Part shown: positions 9,851-18,720 of the stretch, one piece after another
Layout: each line of letters starts with the position of its first letter
How positions within the stretch are numbered: the first letter of the stretch is position 1
Origin: Methanoculleus sp.
GTDB taxonomy: Archaea; Halobacteriota; Methanomicrobia; Methanomicrobiales; Methanoculleaceae
NCBI GenBank assembly: GCA_030156625.1
Contig: JASGMC010000007.1
Location: 1-39,167, forward strand
Direction of reading: 5' to 3'
Length of the DNA stretch: 39,167 nucleotides
The notes under the pieces: generated by a model
What the model was told of the DNA's origin: nothing
The model's database searches: none
The model's input: only the letters and a program-made list of their open reading frames with translations
Made by a program: the position numbers and the translations under genes

Positions 9851-10036
9851 TCAGTCCTCACAGGCGGTCTGCGGGAGGAGGTTCGGGATGCCCTCGTTGA
9901 TGGGGTAGTCGACGCTGCACGCCGCGCACCGGAGGGTGCCTTCCAGCACCTCCTCACCGCTCTCTTCGGTCACGGTCAGCGAAAGTTCGCCCTTGCAGAC
10001 CGGGCAGCAGAGTATCTCCAGCAGGCTTTTTCTCAT
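9851..10036 (-). CDS. Trm112-like zinc-binding protein
   Basis: 61 residues: MRKSLLEILCCPVCKGELSL at the N-terminus, then LRCAACSVDYPINEGIPNLL. The two CxxC pairs form a zinc ribbon, and the family C-terminus YPI..GIPxLLP is intact. Trm112 and its bacterial UPF0434 relatives activate several RNA and protein methyltransferases by binding them; the partner here is unknown. The ATG overlaps the purA stop as ATGA, showing translational coupling. Confidence 0.85.
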   Translation of the reverse strand: MRKSLLEILCCPVCKGELSLTVTEESGEEVLEGTLRCAACSVDYPINEGIPNLLPQTACED

Positions 10037-11043
10037 CGTTCGCCCCTCAGATCGATGATCTGGGACATCTCGGGACCCGTCGATATCAGGGTAACGGGTT
10101 TGCCGATGTCCTTTTCGGCCTGCGCGATGAAGTCCTGTGCCGCTTTGGTCAGCTGATCGTACTCCGTCGCGCCGAAACAGGCCGGGTCGATCCGGTCGAT
10201 GCCGGTGATCGCCGCCTGGGTGCACCCGTTGATCATCGCCGAGTAACGGGCCATCTTCCCGTCCCAGGTGCCGATGCGGCGCTGGCGATGGGTGACGGTG
10301 CCGAACTCCTCGATGCCGAGCTCGTGCGACCGCTCCGTCGTCATCTCCGTGGAGAAGGGACCCTCGCCGACCCGGGTCGGGTAGGCCTTGAAGACGACAA
10401 TGACGTCGTCGATCCGGGTCGGGCCGACGCCGTTGTCGGCGGCGATCTGCGAGGCGGAGGTGTCTTTGCTTGTCACGAACGGGTAGGTCCCGAAGTAGAG
10501 CGAGATCCCGAAGCCCTGGGTCCCCTCGAGGAGGACCACCTCGTCCCGGTCCAGGGCGCTGTTGACGTCTTGGGCCACGTCGGTTATGTAATCCGCGAGC
10601 TCCGGGACGTCTTTCGCCTGCCGGGACGTCCGGAGGACGCGGTCGGCGTTCGCCGGACCGCACCCGGTGCCGGTGCTCCCGATCTTATCCCTGAGATGCC
10701 CGCTCGCTCTGTCCCGGGCGATGTGCTCCTCTTCGATGACGCCGCACCGCCCGTCGACAAAGATCCTGCCCCGGACGCCGAGCAGATCGACTTCCCGCAG
10801 GAACACCCGGGGATCGACGAGCACGCCGCTTCCGACCATGAGGGCCGCTTCCTGGTAGACGAATCCCGAAGGGACCATCCTGACACCGTACTCCTTCTCT
10901 CCGACACAGACGGTATGCCCTGCGTTAGGGCCGACACCGCCCCGGGAGATGATGGATGGTCTGTCCTGATGAGCGATGTGGGCTACGATCTTTCCCTTTC
11001 CCTCGTCACCAAAGAACCCGCCGACGATAATAGTACAACTCAT
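10033..11043 (-). CDS. purA: Adenylosuccinate synthetase, short archaeal type
   Basis: 336 residues from the ATG at 11043 (MSCTIIVGGFFGDEGKGKIV). Longer open frames upstream lack homology. The GTP-binding loop GFFGDEGKGK, GPNAGHTV, GSTGTGCGPANADRV, EGTQGFGISLYFGTYPFVTS and GIDRIDPACFG are family motifs. The enzyme joins IMP and aspartate using GTP on the way to AMP. The length is typical of archaeal PurA, which lacks segments found in the 430-residue bacterial form. First gene of the six-gene operon running to pdxT. The upstream 650-base gap carries ORB elements. Confidence 0.95.
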   Translation of the reverse strand: MSCTIIVGGFFGDEGKGKIVAHIAHQDRPSIISRGGVGPNAGHTVCVGEKEYGVRMVPSGFVYQEAALMVGSGVLVDPRVFLREVDLLGVRGRIFVDGRCGVIEEEHIARDRASGHLRDKIGSTGTGCGPANADRVLRTSRQAKDVPELADYITDVAQDVNSALDRDEVVLLEGTQGFGISLYFGTYPFVTSKDTSASQIAADNGVGPTRIDDVIVVFKAYPTRVGEGPFSTEMTTERSHELGIEEFGTVTHRQRRIGTWDGKMARYSAMINGCTQAAITGIDRIDPACFGATEYDQLTKAAQDFIAQAEKDIGKPVTLISTGPEMSQIIDLRGER

Positions 11044-11194
11044 TGTTCTATCAAGTAGGATGGAGCGATACTGGGTGATAAACGTTACAATGTGACACCG
11101 GGAGAGCTGCCACCCCGCTTGAACATAACCGGGTTCCGACAACCGGTACACTGCCCGCTTCACACCGTTTCGCGCCCCGGGAGGGAGGGGCGGA

Positions 11195-11327
11195 CCGGAG
11201 ATGATCGGCAGGCGCGGGGTTCCGGGCATGCACTTCCGGCATTGCGCCGTGATATTCGCGCATGTCCCGCATTTCCGGCGGCAGCGGCCATCGCATATCA
11301 ACCCCGGCATCCGCCGATCATCTCCGG
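11195..11327. repeat. Long inverted repeat, 15-bp perfect arms
   Basis: CCGGAGATGATCGGC at 11195-11209 is the exact reverse complement of 11313-11327. Pairing can continue inward imperfectly (CGGGGTT with AACCCCG). The loop of about 100 bases is itself rich in partial repeats of the type TTCCGGCAT. It could be a cruciform near the origin, a structured leader of purA, or the trace of a small mobile repeat. Confidence 0.6.
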
Positions 11328-11350: not shown

Positions 11351-11372
11351 CCCCTTCATTTCCAGTGGAAAT
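11351..11372 (-). promoter_or_regulatory. Origin recognition box (ORB), minus orientation
   Basis: The site reads CCCCTTCATTTCCAGTGGAA followed by AT. On the minus strand this is the archaeal ORB pattern TTCCACTGGAAA plus a G-rich tail (GGGG). Orc1/Cdc6 proteins bind such boxes. AT-rich sequence (TTTAATTTCTTGGATATT) follows directly. Confidence 0.75.
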
Positions 11373-11566: not shown

Positions 11567-11588
11567 CTCCAGTGGAAATAAAGGGGTT
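11567..11588 (+). promoter_or_regulatory. Origin recognition box (ORB), plus orientation
   Basis: The site reads CTCCAGTGGAAATAAAGGGG then TT. It is inverted relative to the box at 11351, with about 195 bases between them. Confidence 0.75.
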
Positions 11589-11692
11589 GTCCGCCCGTCG
11601 TTTTTCTGTCGGACACCAAACTATCAGTTGCCCGGGCAGAGATTATCCATAAAAGAATTTCGATTTTCGTTTGAATATTTATGGGGATATTT

Positions 11693-12853
11693 TTATTTTA
11701 TCGATTCAAGAAAGGTCCCCATACGGGAGAGCGCCTCTTTGAGATCGTCGCGCGAGACCGCGTAGGCGCACCGCAGGTGCCCGACACCCGAGGGCCCGAG
11801 GACGCTTCCCGGGACGACCGCCACGTGCTGCTCGCGGAGAAGCGCCTCCGCAAATTCGGTATCGGTCATGCCGGTGCTCTCCACAGAGGGGAAAGCGTAG
11901 AACGCACCCTTCGGGACGTGGCAGGAAAGACCGAGCTTGTTCAACCCGTCGACGAAGAGGTTCCGCCGGAGGCGGTACTCCCGGACCATGGCGTCCTTCT
12001 CGGCTTCCCCGATCCGGAGCGCCTCGTAGGCCGCGATCTGCCCCATGACGGGGGCGCAGAGCGCGACGTACTGGTGGATCTTTAAAGCCGCCGCGGCGAT
12101 CTCGGCCGGAGCGCAGAGGTAGCCGATCCGCCACCCGGTCATGGCGAAGGCCTTCGAGAACCCGTTCAAGGTGATCGTCCGCTCGAAGAGTTCGGGGATC
12201 GTCGCTGGCGAGAAGTGGCCGCCGTCGTAGGTGAGCTCGGCGTAGACCTCGTCGCTGATGAGGAGAAGGTCGTGGTCGACCAGGAGATCGGCAATGGCGC
12301 GCCAGTCCGCCTCCTGCATCACCCCGCCGGTTGGGTTGTTCGGGAAGTTTGCGACGAGCACCTTCGTCCTCGGCGTGATCCGTTCCGCGAGCGCGTCGGC
12401 CGTCAGCCGGAACTCGTCCTCCGCCCGGCAGGGGACGGAGACCGGGATCCCGCCGGCGAGGGAGACGCAGGGGATGTAGGAGACGTAGCAGGGCTCGGCG
12501 ACGAGCACCTCGTCGCCCGGGTCCACGACGGCCCGGATGGCGATGTCGGCCGCTTCCGAGACGCCGCAGGTCACGATGATCTCTTTGTCGGCATCGTAGC
12601 GGGTGTTAAACCGGGTATCGAGGTAGCGGCTGATGGCGCCCCGGAGCTGGGGCGTCCCCTTGTTCGAGGTATAGGCGGTCGACCCCTGCTCGATGGAGTA
12701 GATGGACGCCTCGCAGACGCACCAGGGGGTCACGAAGTCCGGTTCGCCGACACCCAGGGATATGACGTCCTCCATCGTCTGGGCGATATCGAAGAACCGC
12801 CTGATGCCCGACGGGGGTATGGCACGGGCCCGTTCCGAGACGAAGTCCCTCAA
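11693..12853 (-). CDS. Class I/II pyridoxal-phosphate aminotransferase
   Basis: 386 residues, fold type I. Landmarks are SLGVGEPDFVTPW, the cofactor-binding NFPNNPTGG, SDEVYAEL, and the PLP lysine in NGFSKAFAMTGWRIGY (Lys 234), with a C-terminal Arg region HLRCAYAVSR. It resembles archaeal aspartate/aromatic aminotransferases; the exact substrate cannot be read from sequence. The start is TTG at 12853, preceded by a strong GAGGTGAGGTG. The first internal Met (MEDVISLG) would remove conserved N-terminal residues. It is the last gene of orc1-lrp-aminotransferase. Confidence 0.9.
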   Translation of the reverse strand: MRDFVSERARAIPPSGIRRFFDIAQTMEDVISLGVGEPDFVTPWCVCEASIYSIEQGSTAYTSNKGTPQLRGAISRYLDTRFNTRYDADKEIIVTCGVSEAADIAIRAVVDPGDEVLVAEPCYVSYIPCVSLAGGIPVSVPCRAEDEFRLTADALAERITPRTKVLVANFPNNPTGGVMQEADWRAIADLLVDHDLLLISDEVYAELTYDGGHFSPATIPELFERTITLNGFSKAFAMTGWRIGYLCAPAEIAAAALKIHQYVALCAPVMGQIAAYEALRIGEAEKDAMVREYRLRRNLFVDGLNKLGLSCHVPKGAFYAFPSVESTGMTDTEFAEALLREQHVAVVPGSVLGPSGVGHLRCAYAVSRDDLKEALSRMGTFLESIK

Positions 12854-13360: not shown

Positions 13361-14644
13361 TCACCTGAACATTGCTCTCAATCGGTTGATGTCGAGCTCC
13401 TTAAGCCTCTGGTCGTCGAGCCTCGGGTCGCGCATGACGACCTCTTCGATCTTGCTCGTCGTTGCGTCGAACCACATCTCCTTCGTCCGGCCGTAGCGGC
13501 CCCGCGAGACGACCCGGGTGTTGATGACGCCGAGCATGTTGAGCTCGGAGATGAGGTCCGTGATCCGGCGGTGCGTCAGTACGTCGAGATCGATGATCCG
13601 GGCGATCTCGCGGTAGACCACGGTGACCTCGCCGCTCGTGAAGATCCTCTTACCCATCTGCTCGAGGATCAGCATCGCGTAGAGGACCGCCTTGCTCTGG
13701 GTCGGGAGGGTGGAGATGCACTCCACCATGCTGTCGGTCTCGATCTTCTCCTGCGCCATCCGGACATGCCTCTCATCCACATTCGCGGCGTTCTCACGAT
13801 CCGCGAGTTCGCCAGAGACCCGGAGAAGATCGAGCGCCCGCCGGGCGTCGCCGTGCTCCTGCGCCGCGAGCGCCGCACAGAGCGGGATGACCGTCTCGCC
13901 GAGCGCTCCCTCCACGAATGCCAGATCGGCCCTCTGCTGGAGGATGTCGCAGAGCTGCGGGGCGTTGTAGGGGGGGAAGACGATCTCCTCCTCAGAGAGC
14001 GAGGAGAGGACACGGGGGTCCAGGAAGTCGGTGAACCGGAGGTCGTTTGAGATCCCGATGATGCTGACTTTGGCAGACTTCAGATCGGAGTTGATCCGGG
14101 TGAGGTTGTAGAGGGTATCGTCGCCGCTCTTCTTGACGAGTTTGTCGATCTCGTCGAGGATGATGACCATGACCCCACCGCTGCTCTCGAGCTGGTTCTT
14201 CAGTTCCGCGTAGACCTGGTCGGTCGGCCACCCGGTCATGGGGATGTGGTTCCTCGTGCTGTCGCTCGGGTGCTCGTCGGCGTCGTCGAGGCCGTTCGCT
14301 ATCTGGGCGAGGACCCGGTACTGGGTATCGATCACTTCACAGTTGAGGTGTACGATCCTGCACTTCGTCCCGGCGAGTGCGCTGGCGTTCTCGAGCTCCG
14401 TTCCCACGTACCGGGCCGACGCCGTCTTCCCGGTCCCGGTCTTGCCGTAGATGAGGATGTTTGACGGAGTCTCGTTCGTGAGGGCGGGCGCAAGAATGGA
14501 GGCGAGTTCGTCAATCTGCGGTTTCCGGTGAGGAAGGATCTGGGGACGATAGCTGTGTCGGAGCACTTCCCTGTTCTTGAATATACGCCTGTTGGTCAGG
14601 TATTTTTTGAATAATCCCATTGGGTTTGTCTTATCGTCCGACAT
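13361..14644 (-). CDS. cdc6: Orc1/Cdc6 replication initiator
   Basis: 427 residues. AAA+ ATPase: Walker A GKTGTGKT (residues 67-74), Walker B MVIILDEIDKL (about 159-169), sensor region VSIIGISNDLRFTDFLDPRV, arginine-finger/lid region and ARRALDLLRVSGELA. The C-terminal winged helix (VYREIARIIDLDVLTHRRI, DLISELNMLGVINTRVVSRG) binds origin DNA. The protein marks origins by binding ORB sequences and loads MCM. Several matching boxes lie directly upstream and nearby, as is usual for archaeal orc1 genes next to their cognate origin. First gene of a three-gene minus-strand unit. Confidence 0.96.
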   Translation of the reverse strand: MSDDKTNPMGLFKKYLTNRRIFKNREVLRHSYRPQILPHRKPQIDELASILAPALTNETPSNILIYGKTGTGKTASARYVGTELENASALAGTKCRIVHLNCEVIDTQYRVLAQIANGLDDADEHPSDSTRNHIPMTGWPTDQVYAELKNQLESSGGVMVIILDEIDKLVKKSGDDTLYNLTRINSDLKSAKVSIIGISNDLRFTDFLDPRVLSSLSEEEIVFPPYNAPQLCDILQQRADLAFVEGALGETVIPLCAALAAQEHGDARRALDLLRVSGELADRENAANVDERHVRMAQEKIETDSMVECISTLPTQSKAVLYAMLILEQMGKRIFTSGEVTVVYREIARIIDLDVLTHRRITDLISELNMLGVINTRVVSRGRYGRTKEMWFDATTSKIEEVVMRDPRLDDQRLKELDINRLRAMFR

Positions 14645-14723
14645 GATGTCACCGGAGGGGGTTGCCAGGACAGGAAATTTTCGTGTCGAGGACTCTTAAG
14701 ATGATCGTTTTCAGGACAGATAA

Positions 14724-14744
14724 CCCCTTCGTTTCCAGTGGAAC
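14724..14744 (-). promoter_or_regulatory. Origin recognition box (ORB), minus orientation
   Basis: CCCCTTCGTTTCCAGTGGAA then C. It is the closest match in the window to the archaeal ORB core and lies 80 bases upstream of orc1, where it could also mediate autoregulation. Confidence 0.85.
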
Positions 14745-14838
14745 AAAAGACCGTTGAATACCGGTGGGATGCCGATGAACCGTTCAGGATGGCGACGATA
14801 TCAGAGGGCATGCCGGGAGAAAAACCGGGATCGCCCCC

Positions 14839-14859
14839 ACCCCTTTGTTTCGTGTGGAG
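14839..14859 (-). promoter_or_regulatory. Degenerate ORB, minus orientation
   Basis: ACCCCTTTGTTTCGTGTGGA then G. The GGGG tail and spacing are kept, with a few mismatches in the dyad. It has the same direction as the box at 14724. Confidence 0.6.
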
Positions 14860-15001
14860 AGTGATGATGATACGACCCGTATCATTCAATCAAAAAGTGA
14901 TGACGATAGCCATGTGTACCTCTTCAACTCAAGCTATATAATTTTATGGAAAACGTACAGGACAGGAAGAAACGACTGCAGAGCAGGTAAACAGAAGCAT
15001 A

Positions 15002-15075
15002 GAACGAGGAAAGAAGAGGATCGGGTGGAAAAAGAGGAGGGGCAGGTGAAAAAAGAAGAGTCCAGAGTGGAGGGA
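15002..15075 (+). repeat. Purine-rich imperfect 21-bp tandem repeat
   Basis: Three to four units of about 21 bases (for example GGTGGAAAAAGAGGAGGGGC and GGTGAAAAAAGAAGAGTCCA) lie within a longer stretch of almost pure A/G on the plus strand. The position inside the origin suggests an unwinding or protein-loading element. Confidence 0.6.
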
Positions 15076-15446
15076 TAGGTGTACGGAACCGGAAGAAAAA
15101 GTTCGGAGTGAGAAGAGAATGGCACAGTACCCACCCCCGATCATCCTGTCGCCGGACCGATCAACCGTCGGTCAGGACCCCGGTTACTCTCCCGGACGGA
15201 CCGGATCGGCACTCCTCCGGGACCAGATTCCCATCAAGGTGAATCGAGTTGTTGCTCCGGACAGGTTGCATCTCCTCCCTAGAACGGGTCCGGTGGATCG
15301 GATCGAGGATCGGATCGAAAAACTCTCCTGCCAGCCTGGATCCTGTTAACTATCTCGGATAAACCGGATTCGGCCATCGGGGATCCACGGAACCCATCCT
15401 CCCTTCCTGCATCGCCCCTCCCCCCGGGCCGGGGCGAACCGTCATG

Positions 15447-15468
15447 GTTCCAGTCGAAACAAAGGGGT
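15447..15468 (+). promoter_or_regulatory. Origin recognition box (ORB), plus orientation
   Basis: GTTCCAGTCGAAACAAAGGG then GT. There is one mismatch in the dyad (CAGTCG for CAGTGG). It is inverted relative to the boxes on the orc1 side. Confidence 0.75.
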
Positions 15469-15543
15469 CGGGGATTGCATCCCGCTTCGCGGGGAGATAC
15501 AAAGAAGTAAAATACGCGGTACAGAGGTACTGGAAGATTCCAT

Positions 15544-16041
15544 ATGGAAAGTAGCCACCTAAAACCCCTCACCGTGAACGGAGCTGTCATCACCGTCTCT
15601 TCGACCCGGAAACCCGAGACCGACACCAGCGGAAAGGCGCTCGTGGATCTCCTCACCGCTGCCGGCATCGAGGTGACCCACTACGCCGTCATCCCCGACG
15701 ACCAGGAGCGGATCCGCTCCGAGGTCCGGGCGGCGCTTTCGCGCGCCAACTGCGTCATCGTCACCGGGGGCACCGGGCTCACCCCGGACGACGTGACCAT
15801 CGAGGCGGTCGCGCCGCTGCTCTCAAAGACCATCGACGGGTTCGGGGAACTCTTCCGCCTGAAGAGTTACGAGGAGATCGGGACCTCCGCAATCCTCTCG
15901 CGGGCGATCGCGGGCGTCGTCGACGGCCGGGCGATCTTCTGCATCCCGGGCTCGACGAAGGCGGTTACGCTCGCCGCCCGGGAGATCATCATCCCCGAGA
16001 TCCGGCACATCCTGACCCACGCCTCGGCGGGTCAGCGGTAG
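15544..16041 (+). CDS. moaB: MoaB/Mog-family molybdopterin adenylyltransferase
   Basis: 165 residues with the MoCF-binding fold. AVITVSSTRKPETDTSGKAL opens the domain. The substrate-binding CVIVTGGTGLTPDDVTIEAV is followed by GFGELFRLKSYEEIGTSAIL and the C-terminal FCIPGSTKAVTLAA. The enzyme adenylates molybdopterin before metal insertion; methanogens use the cofactor with W or Mo in formylmethanofuran and formate dehydrogenases. A TATA-like GTAAAATACG lies about 30 bases before the ATG. The 3' end overlaps the convergent cgi121 gene by 10 bases. Confidence 0.92.
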   Translation: MESSHLKPLTVNGAVITVSSTRKPETDTSGKALVDLLTAAGIEVTHYAVIPDDQERIRSEVRAALSRANCVIVTGGTGLTPDDVTIEAVAPLLSKTIDGFGELFRLKSYEEIGTSAILSRAIAGVVDGRAIFCIPGSTKAVTLAAREIIIPEIRHILTHASAGQR

Positions 16042-16559
16042 ACGTCGAGGAGCGCCACCCGCTCGAGGACCAGTTCGCGGAACCGGTCCTCCCCGACCAC
16101 TGCAATCTCTTCGGGGGTGATCCCGAAGAGGTCCGCGAGGCGCGCCCGTTTCTCGGGATCGATCTCCTCCTCCGGGTCGTCATCGGCGAACCGCACGAGA
16201 CCGGCAAGGCGGTCCCGGACGCCGGGCGCCGGGGGGCAGACGGCGACGTAAGAACGGTTTTCCCCCGGGTGAATCCCGAAGGACGAGGCCGTCTGACACT
16301 GCCGGGTTCCCGCAGCGTAGAGGAGCGCTTCCATCTCGATTGAGTTTGCGATCGCTTCACCGCTTTCCCACGACCGCCAGGCGTGCCGGAGCGCCGCCTC
16401 CACGTGGCCGCGCCCGGCGAGGCGGTCGGCGTCGAAGAGGATGATGTGGGTCCCGAACTCGTCGGCCGCCGCGCGGACCTTTCGGAGAAAGACGACGTTC
16501 TCATCGACCGTAAAGACCGCCCGGTAGATATCGCATGCTATCTCTGTCATTTCGTTCAC
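16032..16559 (-). CDS. cgi121: KEOPS complex subunit Cgi121
   Basis: 175 residues. The core [20 protein letters not shown], then [20 protein letters not shown] and [13 protein letters not shown] matches Cgi121. This small KEOPS subunit binds Bud32 and tRNA during synthesis of the universal t6A37 modification. The ATG at 16559 overlaps the hel308 stop as ATGA, which decides the start over the later MTEIACD. Linkage to hel308 is seen in other Euryarchaeota. Confidence 0.85.
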
Positions 16560-18694
16560 CCGAACCGGGAAAGGGTCGACTGCTCCTCGCCGGCATTCCC
16601 GATCTCGTCCCGGGCACCATCGAGCTGCTCGAAGACCTGTGCGGCGATCCCCTGCCCGAGAACCTTCCCGACCTTCTCCGGCCCCGCTTCCCGGAGCGCC
16701 TCGATCGAGTCGATACCGTTGTTGAAGAGCCGGCGGGCCCGGACCCGGCCGATCCCCCGGATCCTGATGAGCGGCAGGAGCTCCTTCCTGATGCCGTGTT
16801 TGGTCCGGAGTTCCATCTCCTCGATGGGGGCCTTGAGGTGCGGGGCAAAGAGTCCGGCGAGTTGCCGGCTCGCGTGGACCAGCCAGGCCACGCTCTCCAC
16901 CATCCCGTAGACGTCGCCCGGGCCGACGCTGTAGCGCTCGCAGATCACGTCTTCGCCCACCTCATCGGCCCAGTCGGCGAGGAGGAGCGCGGTCTTGAGG
17001 CTCCGGTCGAACCCCTCGCCCGCGTCCCAGGGGATCTCCGTCCAGAGTTCGTCCCGGTGGTCGGCCAGGAACCGGTCGAGGGCGTACATGTCGTTTCTCC
17101 TGACATAGAGCGTCGGCATATCCGGTGTCGAGCAGAGGAGATGCAGAAGGCCGATATCGGTGTATTCTCTCCGGCCCGTCATCGCCGTCACGATCACCTC
17201 GGCGCTTCTCGGGTCGATGTAGAGCCGGGAGACGAGCGACCCGTACTCGGTGGCCTCGAGCCACTCCCCCACCTCGGTGATCATCTCGCTCTCGCGCAGG
17301 AACTCAAGCACCCGGTCGACCGCCCGCGAGAGCGCACGCGGGCTCTCGCCCTGGTGGGCGTAGAACGTCCCGTCCATGAACCCCAGGACCTCGCCGCGTT
17401 CGCGGGCGAAGTTGGTGGCGATGAGCGAGAGGATATGGGTGCAGAGGACCGCCTCGTCCGCGCACCGGCTCCGGACGTCTTCCGCCGGCGCCTCGATGTA
17501 GCAGTCGAAGAGCTCGTCGACCATCTCCTCTGACTTCGCGATCAGGACGGCCTCGCCGTAGGGGTCGAGACGCGGCCGTCCGGCCCGCCCGGCCATCTGC
17601 CGGTACTCCCGGACCGGGATCGGAACCATCCCCTCGCCGGCGTTGAACCGGAGGTAGTCGCGGACGATCACCCGCCGGGCGGGGAGGTTTAAGCCCGCCG
17701 CGAGCGTCGGGGTCGAGGCGATCGCCTTGATATGCCCCTCGCGGAACCCCGCTTCAACGATCCCTCGCTCCTCCCGCGCGAGCCCGGCGTGGTGGAACGC
17801 CGCTCCCTGCGCGACGCATGCGGCGAGGGTCTTTCCCATATCGGTCGCGGCGTTCGACCGGAGCTTATCGGCGTATCCGGCGAGGACCGGGTTTGCGAGT
17901 TTCAGCCCCGATGCGGCCCGTTTCGCAAACGCTTCGGCGTTCTTCCTCGAGCTGACGAAGACCAGGCACTGCCCCCCCTCCGCGACCGTGTCGAGGACGA
18001 GGTCCAGGTCCTCGTACTTGCTCCGGCGATCGACCTCCCGGGTGCCGTCGGCAAACTTGATGCACTCCTCGAAAAAGACCCCTTCCCGGAGGTCGACCGG
18101 CCGCCACTCGCTCTCGACGAGTTCGGCGTCCAGCCACCCGGCGAGATCGGCAGGGTTCCCGATGGTCGCCGAGAGGGCGATGATCTGCATATCCGGGTTC
18201 TTGTGCCGGAGTTTTGCGATCACCATCTCGAGCGTCGCTCCCCTTGAGGGGTCGTCGATCAGGTGCGCCTCATCGACGACGAGCAGGGTGATCTCCGAGA
18301 GCCACGGTGTCCGGTTCCGCAGGAGCGAGTCCACCTTCTCGCTTGTCGCGACGATGATGTCGTTCCTTCCCAGGTAGTCGTCCCGCCGGTCGAAGTCGCC
18401 GGTTGCGATCCCGACCCGGAGGCCTTTCCCCGAGAACTCCTCGAACTTCTCGCTCGCGAGCGCCCGCAGAGGAACGATGTAGAGGCACTTGCCGCCCCTC
18501 CCCACCTGGTGGTGCATCGCCATCTCGGCGACCAGGGTCTTGCCGCTCGCGGTCGGGATGGCGATCAGAAGGTTTTTCCCCAAAAAAAGGCCTGCTTCAA
18601 CGCAGGCGGCCTGCGGCGGGTAGAGTTCCGTGATCCCGCGGCCGATGTAGCCGGCCGCGAGTTCCGGCGGGACGGGGAGGTCGGCTATCTCCAT
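16556..18694 (-). CDS. hel308: Hel308 (Hjm) superfamily 2 DNA helicase
   Basis: 712 residues from the ATG at 18694; a GTG at 18700 is in frame but falls in the ribosome binding sequence GGGGTGTAC. Q motif region [13 protein letters not shown], motif [17 protein letters not shown], motif [14 protein letters not shown], motif [12 protein letters not shown], motif [20 protein letters not shown] and [20 protein letters not shown] winged helix, the ratchet domain and a C-terminal helix-hairpin-helix ([19 protein letters not shown]) follow. Hel308 unwinds lagging-strand forks and acts in recombination repair. Its start region overlaps an ORB element. Confidence 0.95.
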
Positions 18695-18699
18695 GTACA

Positions 18700-18720
18700 C
18701 CCCTTCGTTTCCACTGCAAG
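18700..18720 (-). promoter_or_regulatory. ORB-like element at the hel308 start
   Basis: CCCCTTCGTTTCCACTG followed by CAAG. The G-rich tail and half of the dyad match the boxes near orc1. On the minus strand the GGGGTG tail doubles as the ribosome binding site of hel308. Confidence 0.55.

Follow-up and report, generated by a model that had tools for sequence, protein, structure and literature searches.

A probable oriC1-type replication origin beside orc1 in Methanoculleus and the ORBs that surround it

Introduction

Does the intergenic gap beside the orc1/cdc6 gene of Methanoculleus act as the origin of chromosomal replication? The layout described for archaea places opposed ORBs around an unwinding element (PMC6742236). 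Some archaea, such as Thermococcus kodakarensis, are reported to replicate without Cdc6 or an origin (PMC5663688). We analysed a stretch of 39,167 nucleotides (the window), which is contig C56 of a 2.16-Mb MAG in 130 contigs. Judged by Orc1, the named relatives closest to this MAG are MAGs and strains of Methanoculleus, and its genus group comprises 35 genomes. A search of the openly available literature returned no description of an origin in Methanoculleus or of an ORB associated with Hel308. We conclude, with a probability of about 0.93, that the gap is the core of the Methanoculleus chromosomal origin, of the oriC1 type. This places a likely origin in a fragmentary MAG and provides a conserved box map for the whole methanogen order.

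Results

Six ORBs around the orc1 locus

The gap separates the orc1 ATG from a moaB-type gene. The genes and boxes of the locus are as follows.

11351..11370, minus strand: ORB D, TTCCACTGGAAATGAAGGGG, past the downstream end of the orc1-lrp-aminotransferase operon; two relatives have a degenerate copy
11567..11586, plus strand: ORB E, CTCCAGTGGAAATAAAGGGG, 216 bp from D and inverted relative to it; matrix and pattern match
13361..14644, minus strand: orc1/cdc6 initiator gene, 427 aa (NCBIfam NF001625, 603 bits)
14645-15543: 899-bp gap
14724..14743, minus strand: ORB A, TTCCACTGGAAACGAAGGGG, exact pattern match, 32.4 bits
14840..14859, minus strand: ORB B, CTCCACACGAAACAAAGGGG, one mismatch to the pattern, 29.5 bits
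15448..15467, plus strand: ORB C, TTCCAGTCGAAACAAAGGGG, opposite in orientation to A and B, exact pattern match, 32.5 bits
15544-16041, plus strand: moaB-type gene, far flank of the gap
16556..18700, minus strand: hel308 helicase gene (NF002654, 1071 bits), adjoining ORB F
18700..18719, minus strand: ORB F, TTGCAGTGGAAACGAAGGGG, roughly 5 nt ahead of the probable hel308 ATG; same place in 24 family relatives

A sequence-only reading of this DNA had proposed three ORB-like boxes in the gap, at coordinates that agree with ours to within about 1 base. These three are real, but the total was undercounted, as six ORBs lie over 7.4 kb. The boxes overlooked were 11351 (minus) and 11567 (plus), an inverted pair downstream of the orc1 operon, and 18700 (minus), before hel308. 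Boxes A and B on the minus strand and C on the plus strand give opposite polarity around the candidate unwinding region. The gap had also been described as gene-free, and the sole long ORF that overlaps it (15279-15668, minus strand) has no family match; the apparent conservation of this ORF is mainly due to its overlap with moaB.

The product of orc1 contains a Cdc6_C winged helix and a Cdc6 lid. The nearest solved structures, winged-helix segment included, are Saccharolobus Orc1-1 (2qby_A) and Aeropyrum Orc1 (2v1u). Orc1 is most similar to ORB-type initiators, with a conserved winged-helix segment, and this likeness to the Orc1-1 and Aeropyrum initiators fits the shared ORB type. The MAG also encodes three divergent Orc1/Cdc6 paralogues (about 26% identity; L003, L004 and L005 on contigs C71, C11 and C6), which are possibly element-borne or regulatory. 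No ORB of the window type scoring above 17 bits was found near these three.

ORBs are concentrated at the locus

A loose pattern derived from the boxes seen at the locus, allowing up to three mismatches, matched seven sites in the 2.16-Mb MAG, six of which were the boxes of the window; the reversed pattern matched twice in the whole genome. In a scan with a 20-mer matrix, the six boxes scored 29-32 bits and shuffled windows at most 14.5. The best match in about 2.0 Mb sampled from two relatives reached 16.9 bits. Because this matrix was built from sites of the genus Methanoculleus, its scores are not independent of those sites. The published Methanomicrobia motif, TCCA[GC]T[GT]GAAA[CT][AG]A[AT]GGGGT (PMC4164010), is an independent statement of the same sequence, and the window boxes match it fully or nearly.

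Boxes are conserved while the spacer changes

The gene order aminotransferase-lrp-orc1-(gap)-moaB-cgi121-hel308 is largely preserved among relatives. All six boxes keep their position and orientation across Methanoculleus, D with the two degenerate cases listed above, and among 27 loci of the same family A, B, C, E and F recur in the same orientation in every locus that extends far enough. In each of the 27 family relatives, ORB A is 78-81 bp away from the start of orc1; ORB B was found in 27 of 27 family loci, and ORB C in all 25 of sufficient length. The boxes persist while the DNA between them changes: the B-to-C distance ranges from 172 to 1042 bp among family loci, and the whole gap, through large indels, from about 480 to 1350 bp. 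Across the order, a minus box followed by a plus box was present upstream of orc1 in 33 of the 34 loci tested.

Nucleotide skew inverts at orc1 in a closed congener

Skew was sampled as 20-kb stretches from two closed relatives, G003 and G011, the MAG itself being fragmented. The expected inflection at the site was borne out in the closed congener G003, where the cumulative skew curve turns at orc1 and GC and AT skew both invert there. We divided its chromosome into equal halves at orc1 and compared 60 stretches of 20 kb by permutation. The halves differed with p = 5e-5 for GC skew, and none of 20,000 permutations equalled the AT difference; these p-values are optimistic because neighbouring stretches are not independent. 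The best equal-halves boundary was orc1 for GC and combined skew, at a resolution of 44 kb. When the origin was fitted freely, it fell at 218 kb (GC), 306 kb (AT) and 262 kb (combined), with orc1 at 208.6 kb. For G011, of which two-thirds of the genome was sampled, AT skew was significant and roughly agreed, and GC skew gave p = 0.18.

The interior of the gap

Three features lie between ORB B and ORB C.

14860..14908, no strand assigned: twin direct repeat AGTGATGATGATA / AGTGATGACGATA, repeat family D9; block conserved in the genus alignment
14911..14957, minus strand: AT-rich pocket with the least stable 60-mer of the gap, a candidate unwinding element; overlaps a TATA-like element
14959..15078, plus strand: purine-rich tract, 82% purine; the interior becomes pyrimidine-rich toward ORB C

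The twin AGTGATGATGATA-type repeats sit between ORB B and the AT pocket and are a possible accessory protein site. The AT-rich pocket noticed earlier is present, with 70% AT over 14912-14951, and it includes the least stable 60-mer of the gap; in most relatives too, the least stable 60-mer lies near this position. As a candidate unwinding element between ORBs it is modest, being only 70% AT and overlapping the TATA-like element, and the least stable stretch of the whole window is elsewhere (11617-11716, beside ORB E). The TATA-like element is conserved on the minus strand (often ACTTTATATCTT), is followed by AGAGGTACAC-ATG and reads toward orc1. This block is the probable orc1 promoter, with a predicted leader of about 270 nt containing ORBs A and B. 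Because pocket and TATA-like element overlap, promoter and unwinding element are inseparable by sequence, and the pocket may be both. The assertion that no other function explains the gap was thus too strong, given this conserved element facing orc1.

The purine tract held up on inspection: 82% purine over 120 nt is the extreme of the 39-kb window. The plus strand turns purine-rich at about 90 nt past B and pyrimidine-rich toward C (14959-15447). Mean purine fractions in successive thirds of the spacer were 0.66, 0.50 and 0.38 in 26 family loci, and the profile was flat in 12 loci of other families. Stretches of 120 nt with at least 75% or at most 25% purine numbered about 3 per million sampled from two relatives. 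A screen with symmetric thresholds indicated that the purine-to-pyrimidine switch is genus-wide and nearly absent from 2.0 Mb of relatives' DNA; the tract itself was absent from G011, G031 and the sister genus. Locus L052 has an extreme switch, with several hundred bases on each side. One idea is that this interior might act as a strand-specific single-strand or priming signal. The Orc1 of Aeropyrum has a preference for single strands rich in T (PMC8287685).

ORBs beyond the gap

Less expected, the ORBs extend far past the gap: one lies just short of the start codon of the DNA-repair helicase gene hel308, and a single further site is roughly half a megabase off. ORBs D and E lie about 1.8-2.0 kb past the end of orc1, after lrp and the aminotransferase gene. 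Loci L069-L071, which belong to another family, have a counterpart of E near position -3056 as counted from orc1. The neighbouring purA frame (10033-11310) is probably over-extended at its start, as the family model starts at residue 90; the gap holding D and E would then be wider.

ORB F precedes the hel308 ATG by 5-6 nt in 25 of 25 covered family loci, the window included, and a box lies near the hel308 start in 6 of the 11 loci of other families in which hel308 was found. Loci with an ORB before hel308 are L042-L066, L069, L074, L075, L077, L079 and L080. This placement suggests that Orc1 binding at ORB F could affect hel308 expression.

The genome-wide pattern search added a seventh site.

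C20:45105-45124 (L094 5328-5347): solitary ORB, CTCCAGTGGAAATCAAGGGG

The two genes that flank it are convergent, and one is a SET-domain gene; a location between convergent genes disfavours a role as a promoter operator. The 24-mer of this ORB is identical in 14 genomes of the genus and nearly so in several more (L082-L093 among the loci); it is missing or diverged in some Methanoculleus genomes, including some complete ones. Its distance to orc1 is about 556 kb in G003 and about 632 kb in G007. Near-perfect ORBs far from orc1 also occur in closed genomes of other Methanomicrobiales families (G058:323974, G070:1146879, G092:221058, G105:664736, G106:695492, G109:151163 and G111:1232048). Since ORBs are found outside the origin too, a box alone is no proof of an origin.

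Discussion

The earlier claim that sequence and layout fit an archaeal origin is very probably right, in view of the ORB enrichment, the order-wide inverted pair and the skew inversion. The two checks that the sequence-only reading had named, on GC skew and on ORB enrichment, both came out in favour of an origin. Origin function is highly likely, and the site would be of an ordinary, known archaeal type. We infer that initiation would proceed as follows. Orc1 from the adjacent gene would bind A and B at one flank and C, in inverted orientation, at the other; the opposed boxes would set the direction of the initiator, allowing two MCM helicases to be loaded between them. Melting would most likely begin at the AT pocket beside ORB B, which is also the apparent site of the orc1 promoter, so that Orc1 at A and B may limit its own expression. 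Boxes D, E, F and the remote box would be further Orc1 sites, titrating Orc1 or controlling neighbouring genes.

One alternative takes the boxes as operators (A/B for orc1, F for hel308 and D/E for purA), with initiation elsewhere. The fixed distance of ORB A from orc1 in the family, the conserved TATA-like element that faces orc1 between B and C, and ORB F directly before the hel308 ATG all fit such a role. However, ORB C is oriented away from orc1, stands at no fixed distance from it and lies ahead of moaB. These features, the retention of the inverted pair across the order and the inversion of skew at orc1 make this alternative very improbable. Regulation and origin function are mutually compatible in any case.

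It is equally hard to believe that the D/E pair before purA is the true initiation site and the upstream gap auxiliary. The pair is inverted with the same polarity and adjoins the least stable DNA of the window. Yet D is degenerate in two relatives, many loci of other families lack a box at this place but retain the inverted pair upstream, and the unstable stretch falls outside D and E, at the end of the operon. Moreover, in Haloarcula hispanica an ORB cluster located downstream showed no origin activity and had a negative effect (PMC3936714).

The idea that an overlooked gene or structured RNA occupies the gap and that the boxes are incidental, to which the overlapping 129-aa frame (15279-15668) and a 7-aa frame after the TATA-like element might point, can be dismissed, because the 129-aa frame matches no family, no Rfam family scores above threshold in the gap, and the gap varies in length through large indels while the boxes stay. 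The 7-aa leader frame was set aside, as neither its length, which runs from 7 to about 30 residues or more, nor its stop is conserved.

Beyond the origin core, we offer as hypotheses that the outlying boxes and the purine/pyrimidine interior have regulatory roles. We consider it possible, though rather doubtful, that Methanomicrobiales Orc1 controls sites past the core, namely a hel308 box coupling a fork-repair helicase to initiation, the downstream pair, and in Methanoculleus a remote titration or timing box, and that the interior switch is a strand-specific unwinding or priming signal. Should the outlying boxes prove functional, they would be an archaeal analogue of initiator titration in bacteria and would tie Orc1 directly to the Hel308 helicase.

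Comparison with known systems

The locus resembles the orc1-adjacent oriC of Methanomicrobia (DoriC / Ori-Finder 2; PMC4164010) in its ORB motif ending in GGGGT, its gap beside orc1 and the extreme of the disparity curve. The conserved outlying boxes (D, E, F and the remote site) and the purine/pyrimidine interior are additions to that description. It shares the TCCA-GAAAC-AAGGGGT type, inverted boxes and a homologous initiator with the crenarchaeal oriC1 and its Orc1-1 (Saccharolobus) and with the Aeropyrum ORBs, but differs in gene neighbourhood, in a core spacing of up to about 1 kb and in the 7.4-kb spread of its boxes.

In Haloarcula hispanica, oriC1 also has inverted ORBs beside cdc6; the Methanoculleus locus yielded no equivalent of the G-rich inverted repeat known from that species. 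Boxes D and E may be compared with oriC2/oriC2D, where extra ORBs downstream of the initiator gene restrain the origin, probably by titration (PMC3936714). In contrast to oriC2D, only two downstream boxes occur here, and they lie past an operon instead of directly after the initiator gene. The Thermococcales ORBs inside the DP1 gene (PMC2643942) are likewise tied to another replication or repair gene, whereas the box described here precedes the hel308 start codon and does not lie within the gene.
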